64,000 nucleotides of DNA, taken from contig CADCMM010000002.1 of NCBI GenBank assembly GCA_902802515.1, positions 1 to 64,000 on the forward strand. The letters run 5' to 3'. How positions within the stretch are numbered: position 1 is the first letter of the stretch; every line of letters begins with the position of its first letter. Shown piece by piece: positions 3,201 to 36,649 of this stretch. Position numbers and translations under genes: made by a program. The notes beneath the pieces are model-generated. The model did not search any database and was not told where the DNA came from. It saw nothing but the letters and a program-made list of their open reading frames with translations. This DNA comes from an uncultured Lachnospiraceae bacterium (lineage in GTDB: Bacteria; Bacillota; Clostridia; Lachnospirales; Lachnospiraceae).

Positions 3201-5048
3201 ATGGCCAGTGTTCAAGTGGAATATGATGCGCAGGATCATGGAGAATTCGGGGATGGCAGTAAAATTTATGCTGATCCTGAGAAGCATCTGGATGGAACAG
3301 GAATCATTCTAAGAGGAGCACCGGAAAAAGTGGAAGATGGCTGCTGCTTTATCGGCTGGCAGATGACCGGAAATTCATCAATATACAAGGCGGGCAGCAC
3401 CGTAGCCATTGAAGCAGACAGCGATGACAAATGTATTTTTACAGCAATTTATGACGAAGTGCCCACAGATGCCGAATTAACATACCATTCCAATTACCCG
3501 GAGGAGACAGGACAGGAGAATCTTGCCTCAACCATTGTCAGAGCAAATAACAAGGGTATAAATGTGGCATCTCCCAGGGACTTTGGTTTCGCCCTTAAAG
3601 GCTACACCTTCCAGGGATGGAGTGAGACTGCGGATGGAGAAGTGAGTTATCAGCCCGGAAAAGAAGCTGGTATTGATAACTTCTCAGAGAATCACCTTTA
3701 CGCGGTTTGGGCGATTAACAACTATAAGCTCACTGTCGATCCCAATGGCGGAACCTGGGAAGGGTACGAAAAACCCACGGAATATATTATGGAGTATCAG
3801 GAGACAAAGGAAATTCCGGATCCTATCTGGGAGGGATATATTTTTGCAGGGTGGACGCTTACTCCGATAGACAGTGAATCTACTTTGAATGAAAAAGTCT
3901 TTACCATGGGATTAAAGGATACTGTGTTGACTGCCCAGTGGAAGAAAGTAGTTCTAAGGAAAGAAACCATCAGCACTCCGGCTAACGGGACATCCTACGT
4001 ATTTGGAGAGGATATCCGTTATAAGATTACGATTGTCAGTGAGGGAACAGTGGCTGTCAATAATGTTGTGATCAGTGATACCCTGACCGGCGATTCTTTC
4101 TTGATTGAGAAACTTGAAGCTGGAGAAACAAAGACTTTTGAGACAAATTATACCGTAACGGAGGCAGATATTCTGGCGGGAAAAGTTGTGAATGTTGCCA
4201 CAGCCAAGGCAGAGGATGTTTCTGTAGATCCGGCAAGTACGGAGGATCCCACAGAAAATCCACGTAGTCACCTTACAGTTCACAAGACTATTGTCAGCAC
4301 CCCGGCTAAAGGAAAAACCTATGGGTTGGGGGAGACGATCCGGTACCAAATTACGGTAACCAATGACGGGAATATAACAGTAACGGATATTGTTGTGACG
4401 GATGAACTGACCGGGAACAACTGGAATGTCGGCACGCTAAGACCGGGAGAGACCAGCAGCGCGCTGGAGGACAGTTATACCGTGACTGAGAGCGACATTG
4501 CGGCTGGAGAGGTGAGAAACATTGCTACGGCCACAGGTAAAACCACAGATCCGGAGAATCCCGATGGACTGGGAGTGATATCAGGTGCGGTAAAAGCTCC
4601 TATGGCCAGGACAATGGCAAGTTTGTATGTCAGAAAAACTTCTGATGCTGTGGGGGCAGTCCAGGAAGGACAGAAAATTACTTACACGATTGTTGTCCTC
4701 AATAATGGTAATCAGACCATTTCAAACATTCGTGTGGAAGACCCGCTGACCGGAGATTCATGGACGATTAAGAAACTGCTTCCGGGTGAGAGTAAGGAAT
4801 ATGAGACCACCCATATTGTTGTGGCTCAGGAGACCAAGGCTGGAAGTGTGACTAATACTGCTAAAGCCACCGGTAAGACTTCGGAAGGCAAGAAAATTTT
4901 GGCTTCAGACAGTGTTACCGACCAGGTAACGGCCTCCGCTGATGTTCCGGCAACAGGGGATTCCGCTCCGCTTAAAGACTATGTACTGCTGGCGGCACTG
5001 GCACTGATTGTGGCAGTATTGGTGCTGCGGAAAAGATACACATGTTAA
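231..5048 (+). CDS. Giant cell-wall-anchored surface protein with InlB-type repeats and DUF11 domains
   Basis: This 1605-residue protein is exported and probably attached to peptidoglycan by sortase. An N-terminal signal peptide (about 1-29) is followed by an acidic Glu/Thr-rich stretch (about 30-135). Residues about 300-1240 hold several InlB/Listeria-Bacteroides-type repeats, each ending in motifs such as GYAFLGWNT and VYAQW. Three DUF11-like beta-sandwich domains start near residues 1241, 1349 and 1464 (SDTLTGDSF, TDELTGNNW, EDPLTGDSW). The C-terminus has the sorting signal VPATGD near 1572, a hydrophobic helix and a short basic tail. A strong RBS (GAGGAGG) precedes the ATG. Role is inferred as adhesion or host interaction; no enzymatic motif is seen. 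Confidence 0.85.
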   Translation: MKKTWKERTVSFLLAVLMVLGNFPGAVGAEEPSLETEFTVAENLQSNLEETYDYQEDLENGAPEPFGVQSETTVQSDVTGEKEETSTELAGVDPQQEEELGNQAETEQDTEKSEDTEENGTAQTDSEIEETEGFSMPAFSAGSTAENGVQVSAFAQEGAFPEGTTMVVSAASRETVMEAAQAITVRKVVDAAAVDISFYNREGEEIEPADRSLVHVNLNTTGTSVEGSSFMVVHVNDWMSAEQVTDVNGISGDGAEFNAAEFSIYAIIGTDPSDDETALERITYKIYDEEEGKLLSTQIVKTGDTLVEPQLPDPEEGQTFLGWFTKSEEGYENFTGFGGSVVVEDTNKDTVVHVFARYGLLYTVAFHDTIWDDVIVDTISGEYIQGNTKVSLDEIVKRTVKVDAGADKMCTGWALSKQDAADRKKLAEDLMISSAGTTDLYPVIEDGHSLLFDANDTSVNRASYTSPQYLYPGEETVKPEDPKRIGYAFLGWNTAVDGSGDDFEFGKELTKNTTVYAQWEAQEVTYNVVYWTEILSKGTTGTHDALDEDGSFDESKALWSRYGAGTATALTGSKVKVAETDMPGGISVPEYYEFYKSAEKEVAGDGATEVNVYFRLRSYEFRWMWDNYTSSDGTVEFYIKTEQGNVYADDEGHGTYSFKAVLGESVSDRTPVLKPLGDNLDPEVICYGWSCPNRLYYGFYTNVARASIPYYWIEEMEKGGSFSAIYSREMVNMRFSYWVESVEDDNVYNLYSTADKIYAKNTTYSPSNTTKYTVLGSISKPEKPSALMPDGQDYPVVNQQNVVIDGTTYAQIYNWYYQRRRFDLVFKDVEESPEYVANYEGLTKRDIKVEAPISAYYHVPEKEGYDFLGWYDTDGTQVTDGNGKLIGTFENEIMPNLNTTREAHWKKSGTVTVTFDPNGGMFQDGTVEVKEYEEPKDELFPADDIPELNDRVGYVFNRWVYADGAEEGKPFDFENTKLIDNVHLKARWVSMASVQVEYDAQDHGEFGDGSKIYADPEKHLDGTGIILRGAPEKVEDGCCFIGWQMTGNSSIYKAGSTVAIEADSDDKCIFTAIYDEVPTDAELTYHSNYPEETGQENLASTIVRANNKGINVASPRDFGFALKGYTFQGWSETADGEVSYQPGKEAGIDNFSENHLYAVWAINNYKLTVDPNGGTWEGYEKPTEYIMEYQETKEIPDPIWEGYIFAGWTLTPIDSESTLNEKVFTMGLKDTVLTAQWKKVVLRKETISTPANGTSYVFGEDIRYKITIVSEGTVAVNNVVISDTLTGDSFLIEKLEAGETKTFETNYTVTEADILAGKVVNVATAKAEDVSVDPASTEDPTENPRSHLTVHKTIVSTPAKGKTYGLGETIRYQITVTNDGNITVTDIVVTDELTGNNWNVGTLRPGETSSALEDSYTVTESDIAAGEVRNIATATGKTTDPENPDGLGVISGAVKAPMARTMASLYVRKTSDAVGAVQEGQKITYTIVVLNNGNQTISNIRVEDPLTGDSWTIKKLLPGESKEYETTHIVVAQETKAGSVTNTAKATGKTSEGKKILASDSVTDQVTASADVPATGDSAPLKDYVLLAALALIVAVLVLRKRYTC

Positions 5049-10160: not shown

Positions 10161-10961
10161 GTGACAGACATGGAAAGCACAGCTAACAAGAAAGAAAACA
10201 CGCAAATCATGGAAGAAAAATTTGCCGGGAAGAAAGGAAATAAGTTCTGGTATTTAAAAGGTCTGCGAGATGGGATCCCCATTGCCATGGGGTACTTCGC
10301 TGTGTCTTTCACCCTTGGCATTACTATGAAAAATACGGGTATTACACCCCTGCAGGGAGCTATCATGTCCATGACGATGCTGGCCTCTGCCGGTCAGTAC
10401 GCGGCTATCACGGTGATCGCGGCGGGTTCCGGTTATCTGGAGATGGTGATCACGACCTTGATCGTGAACCTCAGATATCTTTTGATGTCCTGCGCGCTTT
10501 CCCAGAAAGTGGACAGCAAGACGGGCATGGGGCACCGCCTCGCTATGTCCTATTGTATTACGGATGAAATTTTCGGTGCTGCTTCTCTGGTGGAGGAAAA
10601 ACTGAACCCGTTTTATTCCTATGGGATGGTAACGGTGGCTTGCCCGGGATGGACCATCGGGACATTTCTGGGGGTGGCTTTGGGAACGATCTTACCGGAT
10701 CGTCTTAGCAATGCCATGGGAGTAGCGCTTTATGGAATGTTTCTGGCGGTGATCATTCCACCTGCCAGGAAAGACAAAGTTATTGCCTGTGTTGTGGTTC
10801 TTTCGATGGCCGCCAGCTGCGTTTTTTCCATTGTTCCGGGTTTGAAAGAAATATCATCAGGGTTCCGGATCATTATATTGACTCTGATCATCGCGGGAAT
10901 TGCAGCGTATGTAAAACCAATTGCACAGACGCAAGGAGAGGAGGGAAAGGAGCATGAATAA
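10161..10961 (+). CDS. azlC: AzlC family branched-chain amino acid exporter, large subunit
   Basis: The 266-residue membrane protein has a soluble N-terminal leader of about 35 residues and then the AzlC core: GIPIAMGYFAVSFTLGI, SMTMLASAGQYAA and the NLRYLLMS motif. With AzlD it forms a two-subunit exporter for branched-chain amino acids or analogues. A GTG at 10161 and an ATG at 10170 are both possible starts; GGAG at 10152 favours the GTG. It overlaps azlD by eight bases. Confidence 0.9.
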   Translation: MTDMESTANKKENTQIMEEKFAGKKGNKFWYLKGLRDGIPIAMGYFAVSFTLGITMKNTGITPLQGAIMSMTMLASAGQYAAITVIAAGSGYLEMVITTLIVNLRYLLMSCALSQKVDSKTGMGHRLAMSYCITDEIFGAASLVEEKLNPFYSYGMVTVACPGWTIGTFLGVALGTILPDRLSNAMGVALYGMFLAVIIPPARKDKVIACVVVLSMAASCVFSIVPGLKEISSGFRIIILTLIIAGIAAYVKPIAQTQGEEGKEHE

Positions 10962-11262
10962 CCATTATTATCTGTACCTTCTGGCAGCTGTGCTGGCCAT
11001 TTATGCAGTGAGGGCTTTGCCCATGACGCTGATCCGCAGAGATATCAAAAGCCCCTTTATCCGTTCTTTTTTGCACTATGTGCCTTATGTGACGCTGGCG
11101 GTGATGACCTTTCCGGCCATCCTTTCCGCCACCGGAAGTACTCTGTCAGCTGCGGTGGGATTTGTGACGGCAGTGGTGCTGGCCTATGTGGATGGAAATC
11201 TGTTTCGGGTAGCTATCGGAGCCTGCGTGATGGTGTATCTGGCAGAGTTTTTCTGTATATAA
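10954..11262 (+). CDS. azlD: AzlD family branched-chain amino acid exporter, small subunit
   Basis: The 102-residue protein has four predicted membrane helices and the AzlD signature RALPMTLIRRDI followed by FLHYVPYVTLAVMTFPAIL. It overlaps the end of azlC, which is the usual arrangement for this obligate pair. The ATG at 10954 follows GGGAAAGGAG; a longer TTG frame from 10921 has no support. Confidence 0.9.
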   Translation: MNNHYYLYLLAAVLAIYAVRALPMTLIRRDIKSPFIRSFLHYVPYVTLAVMTFPAILSATGSTLSAAVGFVTAVVLAYVDGNLFRVAIGACVMVYLAEFFCI

Positions 11263-11314: not shown

Positions 11315-11352
11315 AGAACAGTTTATCTTCAGGATAGGCTGTTCTTTTTTTG
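11315..11352 (+). terminator. Rho-independent terminator after azlD
   Basis: AGAACAG (11315-11321) pairs with CTGTTCT (11339-11345), followed by a run of seven T. Confidence 0.75.
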
Positions 11353-11374: not shown

Positions 11375-11424
11375 TTGACATATTCCACTTGTGAAATTAG
11401 AATATATTCAACAAGTGGAATATG
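11375..11424 (+). promoter_or_regulatory. Promoter with 14-bp inverted-repeat operator, probable PadR autoregulatory site
   Basis: TTGACA (11375-11380) and TAGAAT (11398-11403) have a 17-base spacer. Perfect 14-base arms CATATTCCACTTGT (11379-11392) and ACAAGTGGAATATG (11411-11424) surround the -10 box. PadR repressors commonly bind such dyads in their own promoters, so autorepression is the likely logic. Confidence 0.85.
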
Positions 11425-11443
11425 TAAAGTGTAGGAGGTTGAT

Positions 11444-12004
11444 ATGCTGAAACACGGAATTCTCGGGCTGCTAAGTTATGGCAGCATGACGGGATATGAC
11501 ATAACAAGAACTTTTAAGGATTCACTGAGCTACTTTTGGAATGCGCAGACCAGCCAGATTTATAGGGAACTCCAGACGCTCAAAGCAAATGGCTGGGCGA
11601 CCGACGAAACCGTAAATCAGACGGGGAAGCCCGACAAAAAGGTGTTCACGATCACTGAGAGCGGAAGAAAGGAATTAAACAAATGGCTGACGGATGATAC
11701 CGCTGAATTTAGAATGAGGAGTCCGATGCTGATGAAAATCTTTTTTCGGGGTGAGCGAAGCCTGGATGAAAATATTGAATATTTCAGAAAGCTGTATGAT
11801 GACTGTATAAATTTCGCTTTGCTTATGAAGAATTCACCGCCAAACGTTGAGGGATACAAAAATAGGGTAGACGATCCTTCGAAATCAATCTACTGGGGCA
11901 TGACGGTGGAGTTCGGAGCGATGTACGCGCAGATGTATATGAAATGGGTTGAAAATTGCATGAAAAAATTGGAGGAATTGAAAAATGAAAATACTGTTGA
12001 TTAA
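11444..12004 (+). CDS. PadR family transcriptional repressor
   Basis: The 186-residue protein has the PadR winged helix at the N-terminus (HGILGLLSYGSMTGYDI, then QTSQIYRELQTLKANGW and KKVFTITESGRKELNKWL) and a C-terminal helical dimerisation region (PadR_C / Vir-type). A GTAGGAGG RBS precedes the ATG. The gene overlaps the following flavoprotein gene by 20 bases, so the pair is co-expressed. PadR proteins usually sense small toxic or phenolic ligands; the ligand here is unknown. Confidence 0.92.
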   Translation: MLKHGILGLLSYGSMTGYDITRTFKDSLSYFWNAQTSQIYRELQTLKANGWATDETVNQTGKPDKKVFTITESGRKELNKWLTDDTAEFRMRSPMLMKIFFRGERSLDENIEYFRKLYDDCINFALLMKNSPPNVEGYKNRVDDPSKSIYWGMTVEFGAMYAQMYMKWVENCMKKLEELKNENTVD

Positions 12005-13598
12005 TGGCAGCCCCAGGGGCAAGAGAAGCAACACCTACAAGCTTTCTCAGGCGTTTGTAAAAGGACTTTCAGGAAATGGGCAGCCGGAGTATGAGGAGAT
12101 TATCGTAAAAGACAGAGATATTAAAACCTGTCTGGGCTGTTTTTCCTGCTGGAACAAAACTCCCGGTGAATGTGTCGTGAAGGATGACATGCAGGAGATT
12201 CTTCAGAAGTATCTATGGGCGGATGTTGTGATATGGTCGTTTGGCCTTTACTATTTCAATGTTCCCGGCAGACTGAAGCTGCTGATCGACCGCCAGCTTC
12301 CGTTTGCGCTTCCTTTTATGGTGAGCGACAGCGAGAGTGGCAGTCATCCCATGAGATATGATATGACAGGAAAGCGGAATGTAATTATTTCTACCTGTGG
12401 TTTTTACACTGCAAAGGGAAACTATGAATCCGTCAATGCGATGTTTGACCACTTTCTGGGCAAAGGCAATTATGAAACCATTTATTGCGGCCAGGGCGAA
12501 CTGTTCCGAGTGCCAGAGCTTCACGGCAGGACGGATGAGTACTTAAGCTATGTTCAAAAAGCGGGAGAGGAATTTGCAGCAGGAAAAATAACACAGCAGA
12601 CAAGAGAAAAGCTTGACACCCTGCTGTTTCCGAGGGAAACCTTTGAATCGATGGCGGATGCCAGCTGGGGCATAGAGAAAGGAAGCGGTGAGAAAGAAGA
12701 GCCAGCCTACGTTTTCACGAAGCAAATGGCTGCTTTATATAATAAGAATTCCTACAAGGGCAAAGATCTTGTCCTGGAGATGGACTATACAGATGTCGGA
12801 AAACAATATCAGATCATCATGAAAAAGGACGGTTATGAGGTTCGTAAAGACAATTTCGCGAGTTATACGACACGCATAGAAACACCGCTCAGCGTATGGA
12901 AAGATGTCGCTGCTGGAAAGATAAGCGGATCTGCGGCAATGGCAAAAAAGCTTTATCGGGTACAGGGTGATTTTGACCTTATGCTGCATTGGGATGAGTA
13001 TTTAGGCTCCAGCGGAAATAAAGCGAAGAGAAGCCAGACCCAAACAGCATCAAAGGGGAAGGGAACCTCTTTGATGCTGACGCTGATCCCCTGGATCGCG
13101 TTTTGGGTAGCCGCGGCCATCGACAATTTTGTCGGACCGATGATCGCCATAGGCGTATGCGCACTCACAAGCCTCATATTCTTTAATTTCAGAAAAACCA
13201 TATATGATGTGATATCGTCAGCGGCGGTAACTGTGCTTTCCATTTTAGTTCTGCTGTTTCCGGATTCCACAGGCATTTTGATCCCTGGCGCCTATCTGTT
13301 TTTTGGATTAATGTGGAGCCTTTCCTGCCTGGCCAAAATACCGCTGACAGCATGGTATTCCATGAAGGACTACAATGGCGACAGTGCCCTTGAAAATCCT
13401 CTGTTTATCAGAACAAACCGTATACTGACCCTCGCATGGGGAGTGCTGTATATCATCACAAGTATCTGGACATTCTTTTTAATGTCCACTCCGATGGCAT
13501 CCTATACCGCGATCATCAATAATATTATGCCGATCGTTATGGGCATTTTTACAGCCTGGTTCCAGAAATGGTATCCGCCGCACTACGCATCAAAATAA
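11985..13598 (+). CDS. Fusion: iron-sulfur flavoprotein-like FMN reductase, SCP2-like domain and multi-pass membrane domain
   Basis: This 537-residue protein joins three parts. Residues 1-185 form an FMN-binding reductase domain (INGSPRGKRSNTYKL phosphate loop) with a compact cysteine motif C-x2-C-x2-C-x7-C (CLGCFSCWNKTPGEC), as in iron-sulfur flavoproteins. Residues about 240-345 resemble an SCP2/sterol-carrier-type fold (YKGKDLVLEMDYTDVGK, then VWKDVAAGKISGSAAMAKK). Residues about 360-537 are hydrophobic with roughly six or seven membrane helices. It is coupled to the PadR repressor gene. A membrane-tethered, repressor-controlled reductase of a hydrophobic compound is a reasonable inference, but the substrate is not known. 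Confidence 0.75.
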   Translation: MKILLINGSPRGKRSNTYKLSQAFVKGLSGNGQPEYEEIIVKDRDIKTCLGCFSCWNKTPGECVVKDDMQEILQKYLWADVVIWSFGLYYFNVPGRLKLLIDRQLPFALPFMVSDSESGSHPMRYDMTGKRNVIISTCGFYTAKGNYESVNAMFDHFLGKGNYETIYCGQGELFRVPELHGRTDEYLSYVQKAGEEFAAGKITQQTREKLDTLLFPRETFESMADASWGIEKGSGEKEEPAYVFTKQMAALYNKNSYKGKDLVLEMDYTDVGKQYQIIMKKDGYEVRKDNFASYTTRIETPLSVWKDVAAGKISGSAAMAKKLYRVQGDFDLMLHWDEYLGSSGNKAKRSQTQTASKGKGTSLMLTLIPWIAFWVAAAIDNFVGPMIAIGVCALTSLIFFNFRKTIYDVISSAAVTVLSILVLLFPDSTGILIPGAYLFFGLMWSLSCLAKIPLTAWYSMKDYNGDSALENPLFIRTNRILTLAWGVLYIITSIWTFFLMSTPMASYTAIINNIMPIVMGIFTAWFQKWYPPHYASK

Positions 13599-13698: not shown

Positions 13699-15543
13699 AT
13701 GCATTGTTATAGAAAAGTGAAAGAAGACCTTTACTGGGTAGGCGGCAATGACAGACGCCTGGCGATGTTCGAGGGCGTGTATTCCGTCCCTGACGGTGTA
13801 TCCTATAACTCCTATTTATTGCTGGATGAAAAGACCGTACTGTTTGATACGGTGGATAAGGCGGTTTCCGAGACATTCTTTGAGAATGTAGCAGCAGTGC
13901 TGGGAGAGAGGACTCTGGATTATGTGGTGGTTCACCATATGGAACCGGATCATTCTGCCACTTTGGACGGGCTGATTCGCCGTTATCCGGGCGTGAAGCT
14001 GATCTGCAACGCGAAGATTGCGGCCATGATAAAGCAGTACTTCGAATTTGATGTGGATTCCAGGGCTGTTCTGGTGAAAGAGGGAGATACTTTTGAGACC
14101 GGAAAACACCATCTGACTTTTGTGATGGCGCCTATGGTACATTGGCCGGAGGTCATGGTTTCCTATGATATGACAGACAAGATCCTCTTCTCCGCCGATG
14201 CGTTCGGCTGCTTTGGCGCGCTGAACGGCGCTCTGTTTGCGGACGAAGTGGACTTTATGAGGGATTATCTGGATGAAGCCAGAAGATATTACACCAACAT
14301 TGTAGGAAAGTACGGCACTCAGGTGCAGACGCTCCTGAAGAAAGCATCTGCGCTGGAAATCGATATGATCTGTCCGCTCCATGGCTTTGTGTGGAGGAAG
14401 GGACACGGAGAGTTTATCCAGAAGTATGCCCAGTGGAGTTCCTATACCGCGGAGGAGTACGGTGTGGTGATCGCCTATGCTTCAGTGTATGGACATACGG
14501 AAAATGCCGCGGAGGTGCTGGCTTGCAAGCTGAGAGAGGCGGGAGTGAAGACTGTAATGTACGATGTCTCTGTGACTCCGGCGTCCGATATTATTGCGGC
14601 ATGTTTCAAGTACAGTCACCTGGTATTTGCATCCACTACCTATAATGCAGGTATCTTTGTCAATATGGAAGCATTGCTCCATGATCTGGCAGCGCACAAT
14701 ATCCAGAACCGGACGGTAGCGCTTATCGAAAACGGATCCTGGGCGCCCACCAGTGGAAAACTGATGAAGGAATTGCTTTCCGGATGCAAGAATATGACGT
14801 TTATCGAGAACAGTCTGAGTGTGAAATCTGCTCTTAAGGCAGATCAGCTGGCGGTGATCGACGCCATGGCAGAAGAACTTGCGAGTACTCTGCCAAAGAA
14901 GACCGAGGTCAGCGAGGCGGCGGCAGGGGAAGTGGACGATAGGGCAATGTTCAAACTTTCCTACGGCCTGTATGTGCTGACGGCAAAAGAAGGAGACAAG
15001 GATAACGGGTGCATCATTAATACGGCGCTGCAGCTCACCAGTTCCCCGAAGCGTATCACTATCGCAGTGAATAAAGCCAATGCGACCCATGATATGATCA
15101 AAAATACGGGTGTATTTAACGTGTCCATTCTCTCTACAGATGTGCCGTTTACAGTATTCAAGCATTTCGGGTTCCAGAGCGGACGCAATGTAGATAAGTT
15201 TGTCGGATACGAGGCAGCCCAGAGAGCAGCCAACGGTCTGTACTATATTACAGAGGCTGTCAATGGCATGATTTCCGCCAAAGTAGTAGAGATGAAAGAC
15301 TACGGCACCCACACTCTGTTTGTGGCAGAAGTAACGGAGGCGAGAATCCTCTCCGATGTGCCCAGTGTCACCTACCAGTATTACTTTGATCATATCAAGC
15401 CGAAGCCCCAGGCTACCCAGGAGAAAAAGACTGGTTATGTCTGCAAGATCTGCGGCTACGTATATGAGGGCGAGGAGCTTCCGGCAGATTTTATCTGCCC
15501 GCTGTGTAAGCACGGCGCGGAAGACTTTGAAAAACTGCAGTAA
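13699..15543 (+). CDS. Four-module flavodiiron protein (FprA) fused to flavin reductase and rubredoxin
   Basis: The enzyme reduces O2 to water and/or NO to N2O in anaerobes. The 614 residues contain, in order: a metallo-beta-lactamase-like diiron domain (ligand motifs HHMEPDHSATL, MVHWPEVMV, DAFGCFGAL, CPLHGFVW), a flavodoxin domain (IAYASVYGHTENAAEVL, about 255-400), a flavin-reductase split barrel (about 415-565), and a short C-terminal rubredoxin-type knuckle with two CxxC motifs (CKICGY and CPLCKH). Fusing the electron donors onto the core lets one polypeptide carry electrons from NAD(P)H to the diiron site. A separate rubredoxin gene follows. Confidence 0.93.
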   Translation: MHCYRKVKEDLYWVGGNDRRLAMFEGVYSVPDGVSYNSYLLLDEKTVLFDTVDKAVSETFFENVAAVLGERTLDYVVVHHMEPDHSATLDGLIRRYPGVKLICNAKIAAMIKQYFEFDVDSRAVLVKEGDTFETGKHHLTFVMAPMVHWPEVMVSYDMTDKILFSADAFGCFGALNGALFADEVDFMRDYLDEARRYYTNIVGKYGTQVQTLLKKASALEIDMICPLHGFVWRKGHGEFIQKYAQWSSYTAEEYGVVIAYASVYGHTENAAEVLACKLREAGVKTVMYDVSVTPASDIIAACFKYSHLVFASTTYNAGIFVNMEALLHDLAAHNIQNRTVALIENGSWAPTSGKLMKELLSGCKNMTFIENSLSVKSALKADQLAVIDAMAEELASTLPKKTEVSEAAAGEVDDRAMFKLSYGLYVLTAKEGDKDNGCIINTALQLTSSPKRITIAVNKANATHDMIKNTGVFNVSILSTDVPFTVFKHFGFQSGRNVDKFVGYEAAQRAANGLYYITEAVNGMISAKVVEMKDYGTHTLFVAEVTEARILSDVPSVTYQYYFDHIKPKPQATQEKKTGYVCKICGYVYEGEELPADFICPLCKHGAEDFEKLQ

Positions 15544-22386: not shown

Positions 22387-22618
22387 GCAAATGTTGTGAC
22401 CTTGATAGCGTAGAAGCGTGAGGTTGCTGTGGGAATACCGCAGGTTTTCCGTGGAGCGAATGTCAAGTTATGAAAACTGGCGACAAGTCACTGTACAAAT
22501 GGTTAACGTCCACCTGAGAGTGGAAACACCGTGTGAGCATCTGCGATACACGCGGGAGTGTGTACAGTCACCGCTTGTCGTACTGAAATCAAGTGCGAAT
22601 AAGGAGGCGACTTTTTTT
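22387..22618 (+). ncRNA. Structured 5' leader of the S10 operon (candidate autoregulatory element)
   Basis: The leader is about 225 bases without a convincing gene. A long-range stem pairs CGACAAG...ACTGTACA (22481-22497) with TGTACAGT...CTTGTCG (22561-22580), enclosing further short hairpins. Leaders that bind a ribosomal protein (often L4) occur in this position in many bacteria; membership of a named leader family was not tested. Confidence 0.45.
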
Positions 22619-36302: not shown

Positions 36303-36649
36303 GCGACATTAAAAGTAGCGGCAACAGTGGAGACTGCCCGGGAGGGCTGTGACACTGTATACAATATAAGATGGAATTATGGGATTTTAATAATTTCTGT
36401 TATTTCGTTGAGATATTGGCTTTTAATACCAACTCAGGATGTACTGCATTGGATGAAGTATTCATCCCCATTTTACGCCAAATCCGCTATAGACGTAAGA
36501 TCGGTGAATGCGTTGCAAGAGTTTCAGACTCACGGCTTAATGGGTTGGAAAGGCTGCGGAAGCGGCTGGGTGTCTATGTTACACCCCAATTAGAGACAAT
36601 AAACGGACGCTTCTTGGCATAGCGTCCCAGGAAAATGGAGGAAAATTAC
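36303..36649 (+). other. 347-base rpmJ-rpsM spacer without a convincing gene
   Basis: In most relatives rpmJ and rpsM are nearly adjacent. Here a GCCC/GGGC hairpin near 36337-36349 is the only clear structure. Two overlapping frames of 83-88 codons lack an RBS and any recognisable motif. A leader controlling rpsM or a decayed insertion are possibilities. Confidence 0.5.

Follow-up and report, generated by a model that had tools for sequence, protein, structure and literature searches.

A PadR-linked gene of gut and rumen anaerobes encodes a fusion of flavodoxin-like, SCP2 and six-helix membrane domains

A PadR-type repressor gene and the gene for a 537-residue fusion protein form a self-contained two-gene unit in the window analyzed here, a 64,000-nucleotide stretch from an uncultured Lachnospiraceae bacterium. 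The protein joins a flavodoxin-like redox domain, an SCP2 domain and a six-helix membrane domain, and the family to which it belongs is common in gut bacteria. Reduction of a hydrophobic small molecule can soundly be inferred as the function of the protein, all the more because another redox domain, unrelated to the first, is also found joined to this membrane module. We consider it fairly probable that the protein is a membrane-anchored, NAD(P)H/FMN-dependent reductase of an exogenous hydrophobic compound delivered by the SCP2 domain, and that it is repressed by PadR and induced by its substrate. Numerous hydrophobic molecules from the diet, the host and drugs are reduced by gut and rumen anaerobes through enzymes that are still unidentified, and the fusion family is common in those habitats. 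The parts of the protein are of known kinds. Their assembly with a regulator of its own was, as far as we found, not previously described: no paper was found on the fusion, on the VC0807 family or on SCP2 fusions in gut bacteria, and no curated NCBIfam model covers the 537-aa protein.

The fusion gene (11985..13598, forward strand, as are all genes, domains and promoter elements below) was defined from the list of open reading frames, Pfam matches, alignments and a predicted model. Pfam searches with its product matched Flavodoxin_2 (2.6e-18), FMN_red (1.7e-15) and SCP2 (1.3e-5), and a model of the whole protein, built with 64 sequences, had a pLDDT of 88 and a pTM of 0.73. A sequence-only reading of this DNA had proposed a 537-residue protein with redox, SCP2 and membrane parts; this protein is present at 11985-13598, and all the proposed structural elements held. 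The gene for the regulator, a PadR-1 type protein of 186 aa (11444..12004), lies directly upstream, and the two open reading frames share an overlap of 20 bp. An AzlC/AzlD-type branched-chain amino acid exporter pair (10161-11262) comes next on the upstream side of the PadR promoter. Between them is an intrinsic terminator-like hairpin with a T run (11315..11352; a 14-pair stem at 11315-11345, then TTTTTTGG), which ends the upstream azlCD-type unit. When 91 loci were compared for a wider gene cluster, PadR was the sole conserved neighbor of the fusion. The gene downstream in the window (13699-15543) encodes a 614-aa flavodiiron-type protein that carries ODP metallo-beta-lactamase, flavodoxin, flavin reductase and rubredoxin-like domains in a single chain. 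It was ruled out as a member of the unit, since this neighbor is not conserved across the 91 loci.

Relatives of the fusion were encoded at 312 loci in a GTDB scan that used one genome per species. Rumen and gut are the main sources of the best 80 of these 312 loci, which belong to Lachnospiraceae, Oscillospiraceae, further Clostridia and, in some cases, Coriobacteriia. The Coriobacterial members nest within the Clostridia in the tree, a branching pattern that suggests transfer. The same architecture was seen in 63 relatives that are 29-99% identical to the window protein (64 sequences in the alignment), and eight full-length sequences, with relatives at 48-99% identity, aligned from end to end. 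Split or shortened forms were rare in the class sample (G165, G503 and G292); the split form in G165 (locus L126), with an overlap of about 70 bp between its two frames, resembles a recent frameshift. Mobility on plasmids was discounted, as no plasmid record covers 80% of the fusion protein.

Residues 1-205 (11985..12599) form a flavodoxin-like redox domain with predicted FMN binding, of the AzoR fold, as indicated by Pfam, Foldseek and a PDB profile search. Foldseek matched the domain to azoreductases, indigo reductase and quinone reductases (AzoR E 2e-8 to 1e-5). The PDB profile search returned FLR, AzoR, Trp-repressor-binding-protein-like and NQO proteins, and no entry named Isf. A WSFxLYYFxVP loop in the fusion also aligns with the PMYNFSVP loop of AzoR. 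The part had earlier been labeled a flavin reductase; the fold is nearer to azoreductase/quinone reductase (AzoR) than that label implies. The compact C-x2-C-x2-C-x7-C motif that had been noted corresponds to Cys49, Cys52, Cys55 and Cys63 (12129..12173). These residues and C138 are unchanged in all 64 aligned sequences, even at 29% identity. The four invariant cysteines possibly hold a putative Fe-S cluster.

The FMN-dependent azo- and quinone reductases (AzoR; PF02525) resemble the fusion in the fold of residues 1-205 and in the Flavodoxin_2 match, but they lack SCP2 and membrane domains and, in the alignment, the four-cysteine motif. Iron-sulfur flavoproteins (Isf) have a compact C-x2-C-x2-C-x(n)-C motif within a flavodoxin-like domain, like the fusion, in which the cluster is putative. 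To our knowledge, Isf proteins are soluble and have no SCP2 or membrane domains. The nearest characterized enzyme is the flavone ene-reductase FLR from the gut anaerobe Flavonifractor plautii (PDB 7D38-7D3B, PMC7862272). FLR is also the profile-nearest solved structure (E 2e-10, residues 2-107), with a likeness that ends at residue 107. The two proteins share an FMN flavodoxin-like N-domain, a cysteine cluster that appears similar in the alignment, and a gut anaerobe as host. The substrate of FLR is a hydrophobic plant compound, and the main text of the FLR paper names neither iron nor Fe-S (PMC7862272). The C-terminal part of FLR consists of a four-strand subdomain and a bent helix that completes the active site, with no membrane domain reported (PMC7862272). 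This type of tail is absent from the fusion, where residues 240-340 are an SCP2 domain instead.

The SCP2 hydrophobic-ligand domain (12702..13004) was recognized by PF02036 and by its predicted fold. The window protein scored 25.9 bits with PF02036 against a cut-off of 21.3 (E 1.3e-5), and relatives reached 47.7 bits. An AlphaFold (AF2) model of the SCP2 and membrane parts had a pLDDT of 92 and a pTM of 0.83, and the first 46 PDB matches listed by Foldseek for this model were SCP2 proteins or SCP2-containing alkylsulfatases. Among the listed SCP2 fold matches were AF1534, UbiJ, human SCP2 and 1pz4 with a C16 fatty acid. The sequence-only reading was to fall if a structure prediction of the middle part showed no SCP2 fold; the fold was found. 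The SCP2 domain is genuine, and its role in holding a hydrophobic ligand is putative. Members of the SCP2 family (PF02036), such as the C-terminal domain of the SdsA1/PisA1 alkylsulfatases, AF1534, UbiJ and human SCP2, share the fold and the Pfam match; unlike these examples, the SCP2 domain of the fusion is flanked by an FMN domain on one side and a membrane domain on the other. An SCP2-like protein of Blautia has been reported to act on cholesterol (PMC13029680). It was not equated with the fusion, since it is described without a flavodoxin or oxidoreductase part.

Residues 363-537 (13071..13595) were identified as a VC0807-like, six-helix membrane domain with a predicted N-in/C-in topology from the model, the profiles and the charge pattern. 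Six hydrophobic segments lie within residues 361-526, and the predicted cytoplasmic loops are positively charged. The multi-helix membrane anchor that had been claimed is present as six predicted transmembrane helices. In this domain, 30 positions are conserved at 95% or more, polar and aromatic residues included. The Foldseek search of the PDB gave it no match among the solved structures listed. By profile, the domain resembles the uncharacterized VC0807 family (NF041646) and, more distantly, the IspA/IspZ septation protein, a kinship that is drawn through intermediate relatives. The window protein itself scored 10.4 bits on the VC0807 model, far under the curated cut-off of 65, and stand-alone relatives of the 220-aa type (L155 and L157) scored 103.8 and 110.5 bits. 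Profile comparison tied the versions of the membrane domain together at E 5e-17 to 2.5e-7, values that come from single comparisons of hydrophobic sequence and call for caution.

The membrane module was also found with other partners. In L011 and L127, the SCP2/membrane part follows, on the C-terminal side, a carotenoid isomerase/CrtI-like FAD oxidoreductase; the 798-aa protein of L127 (4370-6766) consists of a carotenoid isomerase-like FAD domain, then SCP2, then a like membrane domain. About a dozen loci have the membrane part without SCP2, placed at the N-terminus of CrtI-like oxidoreductases. In L140-L149, L153 and L159, from diverse Firmicutes, a VC0807-like domain precedes CrtI/carotenoid-isomerase-like FAD oxidoreductases of about 680-750 aa, with a shorter match in L145. 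Carotenoid isomerases and desaturases (CrtI-like) act on lipids and polyenes. The joining of a lipid-facing part to two unrelated flavoenzyme folds hints, more strongly than any other finding, at a substrate located in the membrane. It also provides a functional hypothesis for the uncharacterized VC0807-like domain. We tentatively suggest that SCP2 and the VC0807-like domain may serve as a general module for substrate extraction, by which unrelated soluble flavoenzymes are enabled to act on membrane-dissolved molecules, and that these proteins may form an unrecognized class of membrane reductases, PadR-controlled in this case and widespread in gut anaerobes. In L124, the SCP2 and membrane parts make up a separate 316-aa protein (3307-4257), and the next genes are MarR-type regulator-like and MATE-type transporter-like. 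A TM1586-type nitroreductase gene lies immediately downstream of a membrane/CrtI-like fusion in two genomes (L161:3727-4542 and L164:8065-8880), which suggests that the two proteins share a pathway.

The upstream PadR gene that had been claimed was confirmed by Pfam. Its 186-aa product matched PF03551 (1.9e-15) and Vir_act_alpha_C (PF10400; 3e-7) and fits the PadR-1 architecture. The nearest solved structure is PadR of Bacillus subtilis (5x11, E 8e-21), with which the signature GYD and QIY tyrosines align. The two regulators share the PadR-1 architecture, the wHTH tyrosines and a gene that adjoins the presumed target enzyme; the target in B. subtilis is phenolic acid decarboxylase, whereas the presumed target in the window is a membrane flavoenzyme. 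PadR proteins typically detect toxic compounds and switch on detoxifying enzymes or pumps (PMC6457526). PadR was found at position -1 in 68 of the 91 loci, and the other 23 have no recognized adjacent PadR, some of them because the contig stops there. A distant relative, L166, has PadR upstream as well. Distances between PadR proteins were strongly correlated with those between fusions (r=0.91, 67 loci; 0 of 2000 permutations were as high), a correlation to which common descent contributes.

A sigma-70-type promoter, TTGACA-17-TAGAAT (11375..11403), precedes padR; with 11 of 12 matches it is the best in the region, and the sequence-only reading had called it excellent. The same reading had enclosed the promoter in a 14-bp perfect inverted repeat. 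The repeat is perfect, but it is 15 bp long and is better read as a 20-bp palindrome in two copies, for which no strand is assigned. Putative operator copy 1 (11380..11399) lies in the -35/-10 spacer and matches at 13 of 16 fixed positions. Putative operator copy 2 (11404..11423) adjoins the downstream end of the -10 box, matches at 16 of 16 and is the genome's only intact copy. The palindrome, ATATTCNACWWGTNGAATAT, precedes the PadR gene in 65 of 66 loci and is seen in 10.6% of shuffled sequences. At least two copies occur in 38 of the 66 upstream regions, mostly spaced by 24 or 27 bp, and in 64 of 66 the predicted operator and the promoter share sequence. In a genome scan, the sole perfect match was the padR upstream region. 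Given this single intact operator, the regulon appears to be limited to the padR/fusion unit; a wider regulon was discounted, as the single other site in the genome has 3 mismatches. The operator site is mostly absent from loci that lack PadR. The Coriobacteria L079 and L087 carry weaker operator-like sites (14/16 and 13/16) that precede the fusion ORF by about 54 bp. With the window PadR as query, no PadR homolog was found in the genomes of four Coriobacteria without an adjacent PadR, these two included. Control by a dedicated PadR, as had been proposed, is well supported at the sequence level by adjacency, co-inheritance and the operator. A presumed sensor of its own, with a recognizable operator, makes the inducer of the unit accessible by a simple reporter and, hence, the class of substrate.

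In the mechanism we propose, PadR dimers on the two adjacent palindromes would occlude the promoter and keep RNA polymerase out when inducer is absent, as expected from binding in the PadR family. A hydrophobic compound would bind PadR and free the operator, and padR and the fusion gene, which overlap, would be co-transcribed. The fusion protein is predicted to be anchored at the inner side of the membrane, from which its two soluble domains face the cytoplasm. There, SCP2 and the six-helix domain would draw the hydrophobic substrate from the membrane and offer it to the AzoR-like FMN site. The redox domain would use FMN and NAD(P)H, and a cluster held by the four invariant cysteines may relay the electrons. 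Gut and rumen anaerobes probably employ the protein to detoxify the compound or to exploit it as an electron sink. Some points count against this explanation. The 23 loci without a recognized adjacent PadR indicate that induction is not obligatory, and the many invariant polar and aromatic residues of the membrane domain suggest that it may do more than anchor and deliver. AzoR-fold proteins also serve as redox regulators, for example KefF/KefG.

The protein could instead be a biohydrogenation-type enzyme that saturates or isomerizes lipid C=C bonds, such as those of toxic polyunsaturated fatty acids, with SCP2 gripping the fatty chain. The carriers among the best 80 of 312 loci, mainly rumen and hindgut Lachnospiraceae/Oscillospiraceae, would suit this activity, as would the joining of the SCP2/membrane module to enzymes of polyene lipids, the ene-reductase activity of FLR, and the binding of fatty acids by SCP2 proteins, seen in 1pz4. 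However, the fusion is also carried by Coriobacteriia and Faecalibacterium, and we know of no fatty-acid reductase with a flavodoxin-type domain. A purified rumenate reductase is, moreover, already on record in Butyrivibrio, according to references within PMC4478896. We regard this activity as unlikely. A redox sensor, in which the flavodoxin-like domain gates a membrane effector of transport or membrane remodeling as KefF/KefG do with KefB/KefC, is decidedly unlikely. It would account for weak KefF matches in 12 of 64 members and weak KefG matches in 2 of 64, for the 30 conserved positions of the membrane domain, polar ones included, and for VC0807-like domains that occur alone. However, KefF/KefG act as separate subunits, the channel to which they belong has no match to the membrane domain of the fusion, and both SCP2 and the replacement of the redox domain by a CrtI-like enzyme indicate substrate chemistry.

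A dehydrogenase of a self-made respiratory quinone is very improbable, even though the fold is of the AzoR/NQO type, the solved relatives include quinone reductases, and UbiJ, an SCP2 protein of ubiquinone synthesis, is among the fold matches. Neither a UbiA-family prenyltransferase nor MqnA/D was found in the genome, which is 94% complete, and UbiA was present in 14 of 14 control genomes; this makes a self-made quinone substrate unlikely. Dedicated PadR control is also ill-suited to a housekeeping enzyme. A frameshift or assembly artefact that merged separate genes, which the sequence-only reading had named as its possible undoing and which the few split or shortened relatives might recall, is refuted by the same full-length frame in dozens of independent genomes, with a 99% identical copy in a second genome of the same genus. 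Elsewhere in the window, Rfam ribosomal protein leaders of the S10-Clostridia (22403-22486) and S4-Clostridia (36548-36594) types were also detected.
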